This document shows positions 551 through 5,560 of a DNA stretch of 6,207 bases, one piece after another. The notes beneath the pieces were generated by a model, which searched no databases, was not told where the DNA came from, and saw nothing but the letters and a program-made list of their open reading frames with translations. Each line of letters starts with the position of its first letter. Within the stretch, counting starts at the first letter, position 1. Position numbers and translations under genes: made by a program. The DNA lies in NCBI GenBank assembly GCA_018268735.1, contig JAFDWA010000108.1, positions 1-6,207 on the forward strand, written 5' to 3'. Source of the stretch: Actinomycetota bacterium. Its GTDB lineage: Bacteria > Actinomycetota > Acidimicrobiia > Acidimicrobiales > Microtrichaceae.

Positions 551-1816
551 GTGACCGGACCGCCCGATCAGCCCTTCCGCTCCCTGAGCGGCATGCGCGA
601 CGTGCTGGCGCCGGAGTCCTCACGACGCCGGGCACTGGTGGGGGAGTTCGCCGCCGTCGCCGGGTCTGCCGGTTACGAGGAGGTGGTCCTTCCGCTCGTC
701 GAGGACCTCGGGGTGTTCCGCCGCGTCGGCGAGGCGACCGACGTCGTCACCAAGGAGATGTACGACTTCGTCGACAAGGACGGAACCCGCATCGCGCTGC
801 GGCCGGAGATGACCGCCGGTGCCGTCCGCGCCTTCGTGCAGCACCGCCCCACGCTGCCGTGGAAGGTCTGGTACGCGGGATCGAACTTCCGCCACGAGCG
901 TCCGCAGAAGGGCCGCTACCGCAGCTTCGACCAGGTCGGCGTCGAGGTGCTCGGCGTCGACGACGCGGATCTCGACGTCGAGGTGATCGCCCTCGGTTGG
1001 CGCTTCTACCAGCGACTCGGGTTGCGCCGGATCCGACTGCTGTTGAACTCGCTCGGCGAGCACGAGGACCGCGTCCGCTACACCGAGGCCGTGCGTCGCC
1101 ACCTGCACGCGCGGCGCGACGAGCTGTCCGAAGCCGCCCTCGAGACGCTGGAGCGGAACCCGCTGCGCGTCCTCGACTCGAAGCGGCGGGAGGACCGGGC
1201 GGTGATCGCCGATGCGCCGAAGGTCGCCGAGCACCTCTCCGAGGACGCCGCTGCGCACTTCGCACGGGTCCGGGCCGGGCTGGACTCGCTCGGCATCCCG
1301 TACACGATCGAGGACCGGCTCGTCCGTGGGCTCGACTACTACCGGCGGACGACCTTCGAGTACGTCGCCGACGCGCTCGACGCGGCCCAGAACGCCGTCG
1401 GCGGCGGGGGACGCTACGACCGGCTCGCCGAGGACCTCGGAGGGCCGCCGACCGACGGCATCGGCTTCGCGCTCGGCGTGGACCGCATCCTGCTGGCCTG
1501 CGACGCGGAGAGCGTGTTCCCGGCACCATCGGCGGACATGGACGCCTTCGTCGTCGACCTCGTCGGCGGTGCGGCAGCCAGGGACCTCACGCACCTGCTG
1601 CGCGATGCGGGCATGTCGGCGGACCGACGCTTCGGCGGTGGTTCGATGAAGTCGCAGATGAAGTCGGCTGACCGATCCGGTGCTCGGTTCGCGCTGATCG
1701 TCGGCGACGACGAGCTTGCCGTCGACGAGGTGACGGTACGGGACCTTCGCTCCGGCGGCGAGCAGCGCCGCGTGCACCGCGACCAGTTGATCGACGACCT
1801 GAGGACGCACCTGTGA
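551..1816 (+). CDS. hisS: Histidine--tRNA ligase (HisRS)
   Basis: A class II aminoacyl-tRNA synthetase of 421 residues, the usual bacterial length, that charges tRNA-His with histidine in the cytoplasm. Motif 1 lies around GYEEVVLPLVEDLGVF (41-56). It is followed by the substrate loop LRPEMTAG (83-90) and motif 2, FRHERPQKGRYRSFDQ (113-128). The two histidine-specific signatures are LVRGLDYYRRTTFE (257-270), whose Arg259 matches the catalytic Arg259 of E. coli HisRS, and GGGRYDRLAEDLGG (285-298). Motif 3 is GIGFALGVDRIL (303-314). The C-terminal anticodon-binding domain runs from about 331 to 421. The GTG start is chosen because MTGPPDQPFRSLSGMRD aligns with the family N-terminus and no better start lies upstream; it has no Shine-Dalgarno sequence and is probably leaderless. 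Its TGA overlaps the aspS GTG (GTGA), which implies co-transcription and translational coupling. Confidence 0.98.
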   Translation: MTGPPDQPFRSLSGMRDVLAPESSRRRALVGEFAAVAGSAGYEEVVLPLVEDLGVFRRVGEATDVVTKEMYDFVDKDGTRIALRPEMTAGAVRAFVQHRPTLPWKVWYAGSNFRHERPQKGRYRSFDQVGVEVLGVDDADLDVEVIALGWRFYQRLGLRRIRLLLNSLGEHEDRVRYTEAVRRHLHARRDELSEAALETLERNPLRVLDSKRREDRAVIADAPKVAEHLSEDAAAHFARVRAGLDSLGIPYTIEDRLVRGLDYYRRTTFEYVADALDAAQNAVGGGGRYDRLAEDLGGPPTDGIGFALGVDRILLACDAESVFPAPSADMDAFVVDLVGGAAARDLTHLLRDAGMSADRRFGGGSMKSQMKSADRSGARFALIVGDDELAVDEVTVRDLRSGGEQRRVHRDQLIDDLRTHL

Positions 1817-3576
1817 CCACAGCACTTCGAACCCACATGTGCGGCGAGCTGCGCACCGACCACGTCGGCGCGACCGTCTCCGTGTGCGGATGGGTGGCGC
1901 GTCGCCGCGAGCACGGCGAGCACCTCGCGTTCATCGACCTGCGGGACCACACAGGGCTGCTGCAGTGCGTGGTGGACGGCGCGCACGACCTTCGCGGCGA
2001 GTACGTCCTCCGGGTGACCGGCACGGTGCGCCCACGTCCCGAGGGGACCGCCAACGCGTCGCTCGACACGGGCGAGGTGGAGCTCGGCGACTGCAGCGTC
2101 GAGATCCTCTCGGTCGCGGAGCCGCCGCCGTTCCCTCTCGACGACCGGGCGGAGGACGTCGACGAGACCGTGCGGCTGCGCCATCGCTACGTCGATCTCC
2201 GACGTCCGGCGATGCAGCGCAACCTGCGCACAAGGGCAGCGGTCAACGCGTCGCTGCGTCGAGCGATGGACGGCCAGGGCTTCGTGGAGGTCGAGACCCC
2301 CATGTTGATCGCGTCGACGCCAGAGGGTGCCCGTGACTTCGTGGTGCCGTCGCGCCATCGACCGGGCACGTTCTACGCGCTGCCGCAGAGCCCGCAGCTG
2401 TTCAAGCAGCTGTGCATGGTCGGTGGCATCGACCGCTACTACCAGATCGCGCGGTGCTTCCGCGACGAGGACCTTCGGGCCGATCGCCAGTTCGAGTTCA
2501 CCCAGCTCGACGCCGAGATGGGCTTCGCCGGACAGGAGGACGTCCTCGCGGCCGTCACCGTCGCGGTGGGAGCGGCGGTCGAGGCCGTGACAGGAGATCC
2601 GGTCAGCGACATCGGCCGCATGACCTGGCGGGACGCGATGGACCGCTACGGATCCGACAAGCCCGACATCCGCTTCGGGATGGAGCTCGTCGAGCTGACC
2701 GACGTCTTCGCCGACACCGGCTTCAACGCGTTCAAGGCGCCGTCGATCAAGGCGATCCGCCTGGAAGGAGCCTCGGCGTCGACGAGTCGCAGCCGTCTCG
2801 ACGACCTCACCGACATGGCGAAGCGCTGGGGTGCCAAGGGGCTGGTGTGGATGCGTGCCGAGGCAGGGGGCGAGGACGGCGCCGTCGAGCTCGCCTCACC
2901 GGTCGCGAAGTTCCTCGACGCCGCGGAGCTGGGCGCCATCACCGAGCGACTCGGGGTCCTGCCCGGTGACCTCGTGTTCCTCGTCGCCGACGAGTGGGCG
3001 ATGACCTGCCACGTGCTGGGTCTCCTCCGACTCGAGCTCGGACGTCCGGCCGTCGACGAGGGCGGGCTGCAGTTCCTGTGGGTCGTCGACTTCCCGCTCT
3101 TCGAGTCGGTGGATCCCACGAGCGGTCGCCCCGTCCCGGCGCACCACCCGTTCACCATGCCCCACGAGGAGGATCTCGCCCTGCTCGACGGCGACAGCGA
3201 TGCGCTGCTCGAGGTCCGCTCGCAGGCCTACGACCTGGTCCTGAACGGATGGGAGCTCGGCTCGGGCAGCGTCCGGATCCACCGTCCCGAGGTGCAGCGG
3301 CAGATCTTCGGCCTGCTCGGCATCGGCGAGCAGGAGGCGCAGTCGAAGTTCGGCTTCCTCCTCGACGCGTTCCGCTACGGCGCCCCGCCGCACGCCGGCT
3401 TCGCGTTCGGCATCGACCGGCTCGTGGCGCTCCTGCTCGGCGAGGAGAACATCCGCGAGGTGATCGCCTACCCGAAGACGCAGTCGGGCACCGATCCGCT
3501 GACGAAGGCCCCGACGGCGATCGACGCCGGTCACCTGGCAGAGCTCGGCCTGCGCCTGCTGCCGCCCACGACCTGA
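1813..3576 (+). CDS. aspS: Aspartate--tRNA(Asp/Asn) ligase, bacterial type, probably non-discriminating
   Basis: A class II synthetase of 587 residues, typical of bacterial AspRS. In order: N-terminal OB-fold anticodon domain (about 1-105); catalytic core with motif 1 FVEVETPMLIASTPEGARDF (157-176), QSPQLFKQ (192-199) and motif 2 FRDEDLRADRQFEFTQLDAE (216-235, Arg217 and Glu219 as in E. coli); the bacterial GAD insertion (about 290-425); then HHPF (444-447), SGSVRIH (484-490) and motif 3 AFGIDRL (531-537). In the OB fold, RRREHG places His34 where discriminating E. coli AspRS has Leu30, and RPEGTAN places Gly78 where Pseudomonas ND-AspRS has Gly83. M. tuberculosis AspRS shows the same pair. 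This predicts aspartylation of both tRNA-Asp and tRNA-Asn, with GatCAB finishing Asn-tRNA. One oddity is RQFEF where RQPEF is usual. The GTG start overlaps the hisS stop by 4 bp, with GAGG at 1801-1804 as ribosome binding site 8 nt upstream. Confidence 0.98.
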   Translation: MTTALRTHMCGELRTDHVGATVSVCGWVARRREHGEHLAFIDLRDHTGLLQCVVDGAHDLRGEYVLRVTGTVRPRPEGTANASLDTGEVELGDCSVEILSVAEPPPFPLDDRAEDVDETVRLRHRYVDLRRPAMQRNLRTRAAVNASLRRAMDGQGFVEVETPMLIASTPEGARDFVVPSRHRPGTFYALPQSPQLFKQLCMVGGIDRYYQIARCFRDEDLRADRQFEFTQLDAEMGFAGQEDVLAAVTVAVGAAVEAVTGDPVSDIGRMTWRDAMDRYGSDKPDIRFGMELVELTDVFADTGFNAFKAPSIKAIRLEGASASTSRSRLDDLTDMAKRWGAKGLVWMRAEAGGEDGAVELASPVAKFLDAAELGAITERLGVLPGDLVFLVADEWAMTCHVLGLLRLELGRPAVDEGGLQFLWVVDFPLFESVDPTSGRPVPAHHPFTMPHEEDLALLDGDSDALLEVRSQAYDLVLNGWELGSGSVRIHRPEVQRQIFGLLGIGEQEAQSKFGFLLDAFRYGAPPHAGFAFGIDRLVALLLGEENIREVIAYPKTQSGTDPLTKAPTAIDAGHLAELGLRLLPPTT

Positions 3577-3682
3577 GCAGCCCGCCGGGCGCTTCGCCAT
3601 CGAACCTGCAGGTGGCGGTCGTCCCAGCGGCGTGTGGCCTACGAGCTCGCCGGGATGCGCGCAGGTGCGGTCCGCACGGAGC
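3577..3682. other. Non-coding spacer after aspS
   Basis: No supported gene lies here. A short frame from 3634 has no ribosome binding site and runs straight through the riboswitch. There is a weak GCCC-GCC-GGGC hairpin at 3580-3590, just after the aspS stop, too short and without a T-tract to be called a terminator. A 13-bp palindrome at 3665-3677 is listed separately. The rest shows nothing I can interpret. Confidence 0.6.
3665..3677. repeat. 13-bp palindrome upstream of the riboswitch promoter
   Basis: GTGCGG-T-CCGCAC is a perfect inverted repeat with a single central base, 5 bp upstream of the proposed -35 box. The position suits an operator, but in GC-rich DNA such a palindrome can occur by chance. 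It could also fold in RNA as a 5-bp hairpin with a 3-nt loop. No regulator is identifiable. Confidence 0.3.
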
Positions 3683-3713
3683 TTGTCACACCCCTGGGGC
3701 GTGCGGCTAGGGT
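3683..3713 (+). promoter_or_regulatory. Probable promoter of the cobalamin riboswitch transcript
   Basis: TTGTCA (3683-3688) resembles a -35 box and TAGGGT (3708-3713) fits the actinobacterial -10 pattern TAnnnT, with a 19-bp spacer, slightly longer than ideal. Transcription would begin near 3720, just before the first helix of the aptamer. An imperfect palindrome, CACACCCC-T-GGGGCGTG (3687-3703), overlaps the end of the -35 and fills most of the spacer. Confidence 0.55.
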
Positions 3714-3720
3714 GCGGGCC

Positions 3721-3864
3721 ACACAGCGACGTTCGGGGAAAGCCGGTCAGAACCCGGCACTGTCCCGCAACCGTGGGTGGAGGTCGTGGCCTCCACGAGT
3801 CGGAGCACCTGTCGCCGCTGCGCTCAGCAGGACCCGTCGTGGATTGCGGGACGAGCGCCGGGTC
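3721..3864 (+). ncRNA. Cobalamin (B12) riboswitch aptamer with kissing-loop arm
   Basis: The conserved core is recognisable. GGGGAAAGCCGG leads into a hairpin, GCCGG (3742-3746) with CCGGC (3754-3758), followed by the invariant-type CTGTCCCGCAAC. A variable hairpin pairs GTGGAGG (3777-3783) with CCTCCAC (3790-3796). The B12 box GAGTCGGAGCACCTGTC follows at 3797-3813. The closing helix pairs GCGAC (3726-3730) with GTCGC (3811-3815). Downstream, GACCCGTCGT (3831-3840) pairs with ACGA (3851-3854) and CGGGTC (3859-3864) around a 4-nt bulge. Its loop carries TTGCGGG (3844-3850), the exact complement of CCCGCAA (3764-3770), which is the L5-L13 kissing interaction by which this riboswitch class senses adenosyl-, methyl- or hydroxocobalamin. 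The element lies on the same strand directly before two lipoprotein genes, so it should reduce their expression when B12 is plentiful. Confidence 0.95.
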
Positions 3865-3915
3865 GCCGTGCGCACCCGGCATCGCCTCTGTGACTCCCCG
3901 GGATGACACGAGAGG
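3857..3915 (+). promoter_or_regulatory. Riboswitch expression platform with a Shine-Dalgarno-masking hairpin
   Basis: GCCGGGT (3857-3863) can pair with ACCCGGC (3874-3880). This is mutually exclusive with the kissing-loop arm, which also needs CGGGTC at 3859-3864. Next, CCTCTGTG (3885-3892) can pair with CAC (3907-3909) plus AGAGG (3911-3915), with G3910 bulged. The second strand is the Shine-Dalgarno sequence GAGAGG (3910-3915), 8 nt before the ATG at 3924. No T-tract follows either hairpin, so control of translation initiation is more likely than transcription termination. How ligand binding is passed to the masking hairpin is not resolved from sequence alone. Confidence 0.6.
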
Positions 3916-3923
3916 TGATGTCG

Positions 3924-4403
3924 ATGAGAACCGACCGCAAGTTCCGCCGGACCCCGCTCGCAGCCGCTGTGCTGCTCGCTGCGGTCCTCGTCCCCGCCTG
4001 CGCGCCCGGACCGACGACCTACAAGGAGGGCCGCTGCAGCGGCACCGAAGGCGTGAGCGTCGTCGTCGACTTCGCTCCGCTGCAGGACCGCATCGTGCAG
4101 CGATGCGCCCTCGGACCGCAGGCGAACGGTACCGCAGCGCTCAGCGCCGTCGGACTCACGCCTGACTCGGGACCCGTCACCGGCGGGGTCTGCCAGATCG
4201 ACGGCCTGCCGACGCAGGGCTACCCCTACTGCTGGACGACCGGTGGCTACTGGTCCTACTGGAAGGCGCCGTCGGTCGGCGCTGCATGGGGCTTCAGCCC
4301 AGCCGGGCCGGCATCGTCGGCCCCGGCTGCCGGTTCGGTCGAGGGATGGCACTTCGCGCTGTTCGCCAACGGGACCGCGACCCCGCCGCGGGTCGGTGCC
4401 TGA
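3924..4403 (+). CDS. Small secreted lipoprotein, DUF4430 / transcobalamin beta-domain-like
   Basis: A 159-residue exported protein. The N-terminus has a basic stretch (MRTDRKFRR), a hydrophobic helix (residues 11-23) and a lipobox-like VPAC ending at Cys26; Pro at -2 is not ideal but lipidation is still likely. The mature part begins with strand-like VSVVVDF (44-50). It continues with CALGPQANGTAALSAVGL (61-78), VCQIDGLP (89-96), YCWTTGGYWSYWKAP (102-116) and SVEGWHFALF (138-147). This pattern of a strand, an 'aL..aG' helix, an IDG turn and a YWsYW block resembles the DUF4430 family, related to the C-terminal beta domain of transcobalamin. Cys38, 61, 90 and 103 could form two disulfides. The ATG at 3924 is chosen over those at 3903 and 3918 because GAGAGG lies 8 nt upstream. 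Its place behind a B12 riboswitch supports a role in cobalamin capture, which is inferred. Confidence 0.85.
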   Translation: MRTDRKFRRTPLAAAVLLAAVLVPACAPGPTTYKEGRCSGTEGVSVVVDFAPLQDRIVQRCALGPQANGTAALSAVGLTPDSGPVTGGVCQIDGLPTQGYPYCWTTGGYWSYWKAPSVGAAWGFSPAGPASSAPAAGSVEGWHFALFANGTATPPRVGA

Positions 4404-4423
4404 TGCGTCCGACCTCGACCCGC
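4388..4423 (+). other. Stem-loop straddling the stop codon of the first lipoprotein gene
   Basis: GCGGGTCG (4388-4395) and CGACCCGC (4416-4423) form a perfect 8-bp stem whose loop contains the TGA at 4401-4403. An alternative pairing, GGTCGG (4391-4396) with CCGACC (4409-4414), is also possible. It has no T-tract. It might attenuate read-through, protect the upstream message from 3' decay or set the ratio of the two lipoproteins. Confidence 0.45.
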
Positions 4424-4435
4424 CGGTCGCCTGAT

Positions 4436-4487
4436 CACCAGAGCACCGGCCACCAGAACACCAGCCACCAGAGCACCAGCCACCAGG
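4436..4487 (+). repeat. 15-bp tandem repeat between the two lipoprotein genes
   Basis: Three 15-bp units (4436-4450, 4451-4465, 4466-4480) follow the pattern CACCAGAGCACCAGC with one or two differences, then a partial unit CACCAGG (4481-4487). Each unit contains two CACC steps, so there is also a shorter internal periodicity. The unit length is a multiple of three and is in frame with the downstream gene, where it would read HQSTG-HQNTS-HQSTS-HQ. It is probably untranslated because the downstream signal peptide starts at 4505. Confidence 0.85.
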
Positions 4488-4504
4488 CAGAACGGAGCAG
4501 ATCG

Positions 4505-5560
4505 ATGAAGGTCACCTCGACGACGACTCGCCGCGCGGCGGTCACCGCAGCGGCGGTGGTGCTGCTGCTGACGGCGTGCGCACCCCCGCCGAGCGCGAAC
4601 CAGGCCGCTGCCAGCGGCGCCGGCGCCTGGCTCGACCGCCAGTTCACCTCTGCAGGATGGTTCCCCGGTGCCTTCACGCCGTCGACGCCCGACGTCGTCA
4701 ACGGTGCGCAGGCGATCGCCGACCTGTCGGTCCTCGGCATCGGAGCCGGCTCGCGAGCGACTCGGCTCGCCCGTCTGGAGGCCGACGCCCCGGCGGCGAT
4801 CGACGACGGCACGGCCTACGTCCCGGGCACCCTCGCCCGAGTCATCCTCGCCGTCGTCGCCTCCGGTGGGAACCCCCGCTCCTTCGCCGGCACCGACCTC
4901 GTCGCCGACCTGGAGTCGACGATCCAGCCGGACGGACGCTTCGGCTCGCAGTTCCCCGGCTACGACGGCTCGTACCGCCAGGGCCTCGCCCTGGCCGCCC
5001 TGTCGGTGGTGACGCCACGTCCGGCGAGCATCACGCCGGCGTCCGGCCAGTCGATCGACGATGTGGCTGCTGTGGCGTGGCTCCGGGCCCAGCAGTGCGC
5101 CGACGGATCCTGGATGGCGTTCAGGGCCACCACGACGTCGCCGTGCGTCGAGGACCCCAGCACGTGGACCTACAAGGACTCCAACGGATCCGCGATGGCG
5201 GCGCTCGGACTGACCGCCGTCGGCGCGACCGCCCCCGTCGACCCGTCGGGCTGGTTCACCTCGGTGCGAGGGAGTGACGGCGGCTGGGGTGCGTTCCCCG
5301 CCGGGGCCACGACGCAGTCCGACGCTGATTCGACCGGGCTCGTCATCGCTGCGCTGAAGGCGCTGGGTCACGATCCCGACGAGTCGGCCTATGCCGCGCT
5401 GCGCTCGTTCCAGCTCGGCGACACCGCGGCGGTGGCGGACCGCGGCGCGTTCTTCTACAAGAGCCCCGACCACAGCCCGAACAGCTATGCCACGCTCGAC
5501 GCGCTGACCGCCCTGTTCGACGGGGTGTGGCCCGGGGTGCTCGCGGCGTCGCACGGGTAG
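4505..5560 (+). CDS. Alpha/alpha-toroid lipoprotein (prenyltransferase/squalene-cyclase repeat fold), transcobalamin alpha-domain-like
   Basis: A 351-residue exported lipoprotein. The signal peptide MKVTSTTTRR plus a hydrophobic stretch ends in a good lipobox, LTAC, with Cys25 as the lipidation site. About six repeats of the form 'xxGxAxxALxxxG' follow, near residues 64-79, 103-121, 156-169, 227-240, 274-288 and 326-340. QW-like turns occur at QQCADGSW (196-203) and GSDGGWGAF (256-264). This fits an alpha6/alpha6 barrel as found in terpene cyclases, prenyltransferase beta subunits and the N-terminal domain of transcobalamin/intrinsic factor. A terpene cyclase is unlikely: the protein is secreted, about half the usual cyclase length, and has DADST (273-277) rather than DxDDT. 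Cys198 and Cys214 could form a disulfide. GGAG at 4494-4497 lies 7 nt before the ATG. An in-frame ATG at 4403 overlapping the previous stop would add 34 residues before the signal peptide and is less likely. A B12-binding role is inferred from the riboswitch and partner gene. Confidence 0.9.
   Translation: MKVTSTTTRRAAVTAAAVVLLLTACAPPPSANQAAASGAGAWLDRQFTSAGWFPGAFTPSTPDVVNGAQAIADLSVLGIGAGSRATRLARLEADAPAAIDDGTAYVPGTLARVILAVVASGGNPRSFAGTDLVADLESTIQPDGRFGSQFPGYDGSYRQGLALAALSVVTPRPASITPASGQSIDDVAAVAWLRAQQCADGSWMAFRATTTSPCVEDPSTWTYKDSNGSAMAALGLTAVGATAPVDPSGWFTSVRGSDGGWGAFPAGATTQSDADSTGLVIAALKALGHDPDESAYAALRSFQLGDTAAVADRGAFFYKSPDHSPNSYATLDALTALFDGVWPGVLAASHG

Follow-up and report, generated by a model that had tools for sequence, protein, structure and literature searches.

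A putative split, transcobalamin-like cobalamin capture pair associated with a degenerate riboswitch in Actinomycetota

The animal cobalamin (vitamin B12) carriers transcobalamin, intrinsic factor and haptocorrin hold an alpha/alpha toroid and a C-terminal beta-grasp domain on one chain, and a locus in an assembly of Actinomycetota (GCA_018268735.1, contig JAFDWA010000108.1) raises the question whether bacteria may build the same clamp from two proteins. The whole stretch analysed, 6,207 nt long, is called the window, and all coordinates are positions in it on the + strand (Table 1). Between aspS and rarA it holds a riboswitch-like element followed by genes for two predicted lipoproteins of 159 and 351 aa, the first with a beta-grasp domain of the C-terminal carrier type and the second with an alpha/alpha toroid as judged from a homologous, modelled fusion protein; unlike the carriers, these are two genes and two chains, and some of their homologues are fused. 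The two proteins are probably the halves of a transcobalamin-like clamp that captures cobalamin at the cell surface under riboswitch control. The gene pair, its exact synteny in a same-genus genome, the homology to proteins that head energy-coupling factor (ECF) transporter operons or are fused, the association with cobalamin-clan riboswitches and a second riboswitch-toroid-beta set in the own genome are the observations behind this reading.

Carrier-type folds on two predicted lipoproteins

The structure model of the beta domain finds its best matches among transcobalamin-type beta domains, at 8-14% identity to the animal carriers over the match, and a YWSYW block is conserved among the beta homologues. 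The model also places two-residue strands at residues 87-88 and 98-99 after a helix at 76-82, strand positions only, which bear on the beta-hairpin insert of the SLBB clade. The fold and the YWSYW block agree with the preliminary description, which had also named DUF4430 features in the protein; by Pfam this label did not stand. DUF4430 (PF14478) gave no match in P0001 (the beta protein as read from 3903, 166 aa) and none in its own genome, and we reject it as a label because the Pfam cut-off is not reached. What links the beta family to DUF4430 is the fold and a modest profile match, the hhalign comparison with four proteins of DUF4430 operons yielding 70.8% probability (E 3.8e-5, 51 columns). 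Another family, PF28005, is annotated on many beta homologues (P0003-P0073) and was not reported by the Pfam copy used here.

For the toroid protein (P0002), weak matches to squalene-cyclase repeats lie below the Pfam cut-offs, and sequence search of solved structures gave nothing meaningful for either protein. The natural fusion P0150 is 37% identical to it over 360 alignment columns (P0002 residues 9-343) and is modelled as a ring of 12 helices in six hairpins. P0002 is therefore likely an alpha/alpha toroid by homology to this model, in line with the six repeats originally proposed. Compared with a toroid of the SCO2321 type (L032:5986-7221), the window toroid appears circularly permuted, its N-terminal part corresponding to the C-terminal part of the profile and vice versa. 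Among 49 rows, 25 seem permuted (including P0085 and L192, which are apparently one protein), 2 straight, 6 show repeat overlap and 16 are undecided, and internal repeats could mimic the signal.

Both proteins had been described as lipoproteins, and their N-termini bear lipobox-like motifs, VPAC in the beta protein (with an unusual proline at -2) and LTAC in the toroid. The same loose pattern is common in homologues: it occurs in 28 of 36 close beta rows, where P0003 repeats the window protein itself, and in 30 of the 39 rows close to the toroid. Membrane anchoring, like the two folds, is a prediction. The beta gene most likely starts at the ATG at 3924, 8 nt past AGAGG.

Association with ECF operons and cobalamin riboswitches

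We sampled 198 genomes of Actinomycetota, including the window's own. True beta matches occur in 36 genomes (42 were reported, and six were dropped as hits to a low-complexity model tail only), and 34 of these 36 also match the toroid model, compared with 36 of the 162 genomes without beta; this model is loose and also matches other toroid proteins. The beta domain is C-terminal in 6 of 109 toroid proteins, a seventh match in a signal-peptide region having been dropped, and three further gene calls (L047, L054, L080) are fused. Toroid and beta are adjacent or fused in 26 of 54 loci. In 22 of these, genes for CbiQ and a double ECF ATPase follow; of the remaining four, L049 and L072 extend as far as CbiQ close to the end of a contig, L085 is truncated, and L077 lacks these genes. 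Four loci (L057, L074, L078, L079) have beta-CbiQ-ATPase with no toroid in front, and seven have no toroid or beta gene called. A representative operon, whose toroid scores above the SCO2321 cut-off, consists of toroid, beta, CbiQ, an ECF-type ATPase and a PF12822 S component, all five identified by library search; the S-component tag of the neighbourhood scan also fell on toroid genes and was disregarded in the counts. Beside a short beta gene, L076 carries a 974-aa gene (2034-4958) that matches CbiQ, ATPase and S profiles and is possibly a single-chain ECF transporter.

The B12 context first proposed for the pair holds in a survey of upstream regions. For each of 40 toroid/beta genes or operons we took the preceding 660 bases and compared them with 38 upstream regions of other genes in the same loci. 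The loci were taken from profile matches and not chosen by riboswitch result, and results for 29 small loci (11 above the gathering score) were known before part of the selection. Twelve of the 54 loci were skipped, namely the seven without a called toroid or beta gene, L056, L065, L071, L076 and the own-genome L072, and removal of L059 and L061 from the remaining 42 gave the 40; among those skipped, L071 (also numbered L018) had an adenosylcobalamin (AdoCbl)-type match and L072 is a known positive. A sense match to the cobalamin clan at E<=0.1 was found in 33 of the 40 toroid/beta regions and in 2 of the 38 controls, and the gathering score was reached by 15 of the 33 and by both control matches. 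Fisher p values for the counts given here (2e-16 and 8e-13) overstate independence because the genomes counted are related to one another.

The two control matches each stand ahead of an operon that encodes two secreted proteins, CbiQ, an ATPase and the toroid; one of these operons also has a called S component. In L059 and L062, operons with a strong cobalamin riboswitch (S component called in L059), three of four secreted proteins score above the DUF4430 cut-off and one below; in these operons, genuine DUF4430 proteins seem to take the place of the beta family. Of the seven misses, L087, L089 and L123, from the genus of SCO2321-type genomes, align with riboswitch-positive regions and have a degenerate core, L110, L111 and L114 are toroid genes placed within an operon or last in it, and no explanation was found for L095. 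In genomes G134 and G166 the toroid and the beta-ECF operon lie on separate contigs, each with its own riboswitch match (pairs L091 and L116, L094 and L120), and only one of these four matches reaches the gathering score. A second, strong cobalamin riboswitch in G171 (L108 1-146, - strand, 67.4 bits) is directed away from the beta-ECF operon.

Close relatives repeat the arrangement. A same-genus genome has the order hisS-aspS-riboswitch-beta-toroid-rarA and a separate toroid-beta-CbiQ-ATPase operon, and its only two riboswitch matches at E<=0.1 stand one ahead of each module (the second weak, E 0.018). The window's own genome likewise has another riboswitch (40.6 bits), followed by a toroid gene, a beta gene, a CbiQ-like fragment and the contig end. 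Among 10 genomes of the order, picked for beta matches, 10 of 13 riboswitch matches are directly upstream of toroid/beta modules; the three that lie in other places come from G323 (two) and G317 (one), and none was found in G264. The own genome (83% complete) encodes methylmalonyl-CoA mutase and two TP_methylase genes only, too few for corrin synthesis, which partially supports dependence of the organism on B12. Two matches to MetH in this genome are both under the cut-off.

The element in the window matches the full RF00174 model (positions 1-189) with 22.9 bits and E 6.8e-4 in a focused search of 441 bases. Its aptamer core is invariant in an alignment with three related loci (four genomes in all), and the syntenic element of the same-genus genome reaches 31.3 bits (E 6.5e-6). 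A full-length alignment, a conserved core and a position upstream of B12-related genes come together, and the riboswitch is real but degenerate, less clear than it had first been called. Downstream, the segment 3836-3870 is predicted to pair with the aptamer core at 3746-3776 (-39.5 kcal/mol), with a TGCGG stretch invariant in all four aligned genomes, and the hairpin over the Shine-Dalgarno sequence is predicted at -27.7 kcal/mol (z -3.36). Together, the core-complementary segment and this hairpin suggest control at translation, in which the ribosome-binding site would be hidden when B12 is bound. No promoter- or terminator-like sites were found in a scan, which says little since shuffles yield almost none. 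The flanking genes are presumably hisS, aspS and rarA/mgsA, judged by their sequences.

Table 1. Features of the window
Feature	Position	Strand	Basis
hisS	551-1816	+	name judged by sequence
aspS	1813-3576	+	name judged by sequence
Cobalamin-riboswitch-like aptamer (RF00174, sub-threshold)	3713..3830	+	RF00174 match, four-genome conservation, syntenic same-genus element
Predicted alternative stem (expression platform), able to pair with part of the aptamer core within 3746-3776	3841..3866	+	duplex energy; putative role
Predicted hairpin hiding Shine-Dalgarno AGAGG (3911-3915) and in-frame ATG 3918	3877..3923	+	folding energy
Beta-grasp, transcobalamin-beta-like predicted lipoprotein, 159 aa	3924..4403	+	lipobox Cys codon 3999-4001
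15-bp tandem repeat, 3.4 copies, between beta and toroid genes	4436..4486	+	
Alpha/alpha-toroid predicted lipoprotein P0002, 351 aa	4505..5560	+	lipobox Cys codon 4577-4579; fold by homology to modelled fusion
rarA/mgsA	from 5572	+	name judged by sequence

A surface clamp and its alternatives

For human intrinsic factor, separate fragments are reported to come together again around cobalamin. The window pair would be made when B12 runs short, under the likely cobalamin riboswitch, and both chains would be lipid-anchored at the cell surface. Beta and toroid might then close round one cobalamin, or a corrinoid akin to it, in the manner of the two transcobalamin domains. An ECF transporter whose genes lie elsewhere in the genome could receive the captured corrinoid through its S component, and the window pair would be an extra, free-standing capture module without its own transporter. 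Corrinoid binding, complex formation, the identity of the ligand and its hand-over are all inferred. This fuller version, in which two separately anchored chains form a ligand-glued pair that delivers to an ECF importer and duplicates the module heading B12-riboswitch ECF operons in Actinomycetota, has in our judgement about an even chance of being right.

A number of results weigh against the proposed clamp. The window proteins score below the curated cut-offs of SCO2322_fam (beta, 33.9 of 85 bits) and SCO2321_fam (toroid, 145.1 of 300 bits, E 2.7e-42), and DUF4430 is found in none of 39 beta family members at E<=10 among the matches listed (25 of 30 families). The best structural matches of the toroid model are squalene cyclases and not transcobalamin, the fold being a common one, and the domain arrangement of the P0150 model was not used because its beta half has low confidence. 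As to the riboswitch, Rfam gave no match at the gathering threshold anywhere in the window, a search of the whole own genome with RF00174 returned one other site only and missed the window element, the score of that element lies under the gathering cut-off of 31.5 bits, and so do 18 of the 33 survey matches under theirs. The stem of comparable form predicted for the same-genus genome is no stabler than shuffles (z -0.33), and translational switching hence stays a prediction only. The second set in the own genome stops at the contig end, and its fragment is CbiQ-like by our own profile alone, with no Pfam match; for these reasons an ECF operon in this genome is only inferred, and we do not claim the set as a proven one. 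Finally, in G008 and G062 beta occurs with no match to the toroid, and in three relatives (L164, L194, L197) a lipoprotein beta gene has no adjoining toroid, those of L164 and L194 adjoining an ECF operon with its own toroid and beta. The bacterial two-part trap envisaged at the outset is partly supported: its fold relationship, its pairing and its B12 context hold in the sampled genomes of Actinomycetota, DUF4430 does not by Pfam, and beta genes that stand alone occur in the three relatives.

Such lone beta genes would fit an alternative in which the beta lipoprotein binds alone, or together with the toroid that the ECF operon encodes, and the window proteins form no dedicated complex; PDB entry 5np4, whose title describes cyanocobalamin bound to the human transcobalamin beta domain in isolation, points the same way. 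We consider this unlikely, as beta and toroid are adjacent in both the window and the same-genus genome, co-occur in nearly all beta-bearing genomes and are fused in several proteins. Somewhat less probable still is that, in place of cobalamin, the pair binds a relative such as cobinamide or a different cobamide, or that it works in cobalt uptake. Cobalamin riboswitches also govern cobalt transporters. CbiQ is the 'cobalt transport protein' of Pfam, and ECF-CbrT is described in the available text as transporting both cobalamin and cobinamide (PMC5997447); the PF12822 S component of the representative operon and a beta fold that is that of cobalamin carriers speak for cobalamin itself. That the toroid is a terpene-cyclase-like enzyme beside a B12-regulated gene by chance, as its best fold and Pfam matches to squalene-hopene cyclases might suggest, is very improbable, given that DxDD, the catalytic motif of these cyclases, is absent from P0002 and present in only 4 of the 109 proteins of the set, that the toroid is a predicted lipoprotein, and that a cobalamin riboswitch match of its own accompanies the toroid gene where it lies on a different contig from beta (L091, L094).

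Relation to known systems

The surface clamp favoured here has a precedent. Burroughs et al. 2007 (PMC1796856) described, in the text available, bacterial transcobalamin-like SLBB beta-grasp domains that are joined to toroids and encoded alongside CbiO and CbiQ in operons. The paper proposed B12 scavenging for them and lists low-GC Gram-positives, planctomycetes and euryarchaea as the groups that have this clade. Common to those proteins and the window are a secreted beta-grasp domain, an alpha/alpha toroid and the predicted role, and the homologues of the window proteins likewise have CbiO/CbiQ-like operon genes; the window case differs in its split predicted lipoproteins, its occurrence in Actinomycetota and its cobalamin-clan riboswitches, and the words 'riboswitch' and 'lipoprotein' each occur 0 times in the main text of that paper. 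These three points are what is new here, the general idea having been published for other phyla (PMC1796856, as far as its available text goes). No description of the split actinobacterial form was found in titles and abstract starts of the open-licence literature, and prior mention in subscription papers is possible.

The NCBIfam families SCO2321 and SCO2322, named after Streptomyces genes, are homologous to the window toroid and beta protein and are the first two genes of a representative ECF operon, whereas the window proteins fall short of both cut-offs and the window toroid, with 24 more of the 49 rows, appears circularly permuted. According to the available parts of the sources, the Bacteroides surface lipoproteins BtuG and DUF4465 also capture B12 (PMC6143338, PMC10404256, PMC13398666), but they act with the outer-membrane transporter BtuB, and those of PMC13398666 belong to a different domain family (DUF4465); the likeness is by description only. 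ECF-CbrT of Lactobacillus delbrueckii, an ECF-type B12 importer, is likely the type of receiver for captured B12; the available text (PMC5997447) names no extracellular capture protein, and the likeness is by transporter type only.

If the proposed clamp is correct, the SCO2321 and SCO2322 families, for which the NCBIfam names give no function, would gain a likely one, and both would be tied to B12 by riboswitch and operon evidence. The split form would offer a test system for the cooperation of toroid and beta domains, and it bears on the 2007 proposal that the animal carriers were derived from bacteria (PMC1796856, available text). It would also show how such bacteria may scavenge scarce B12 at their surface.
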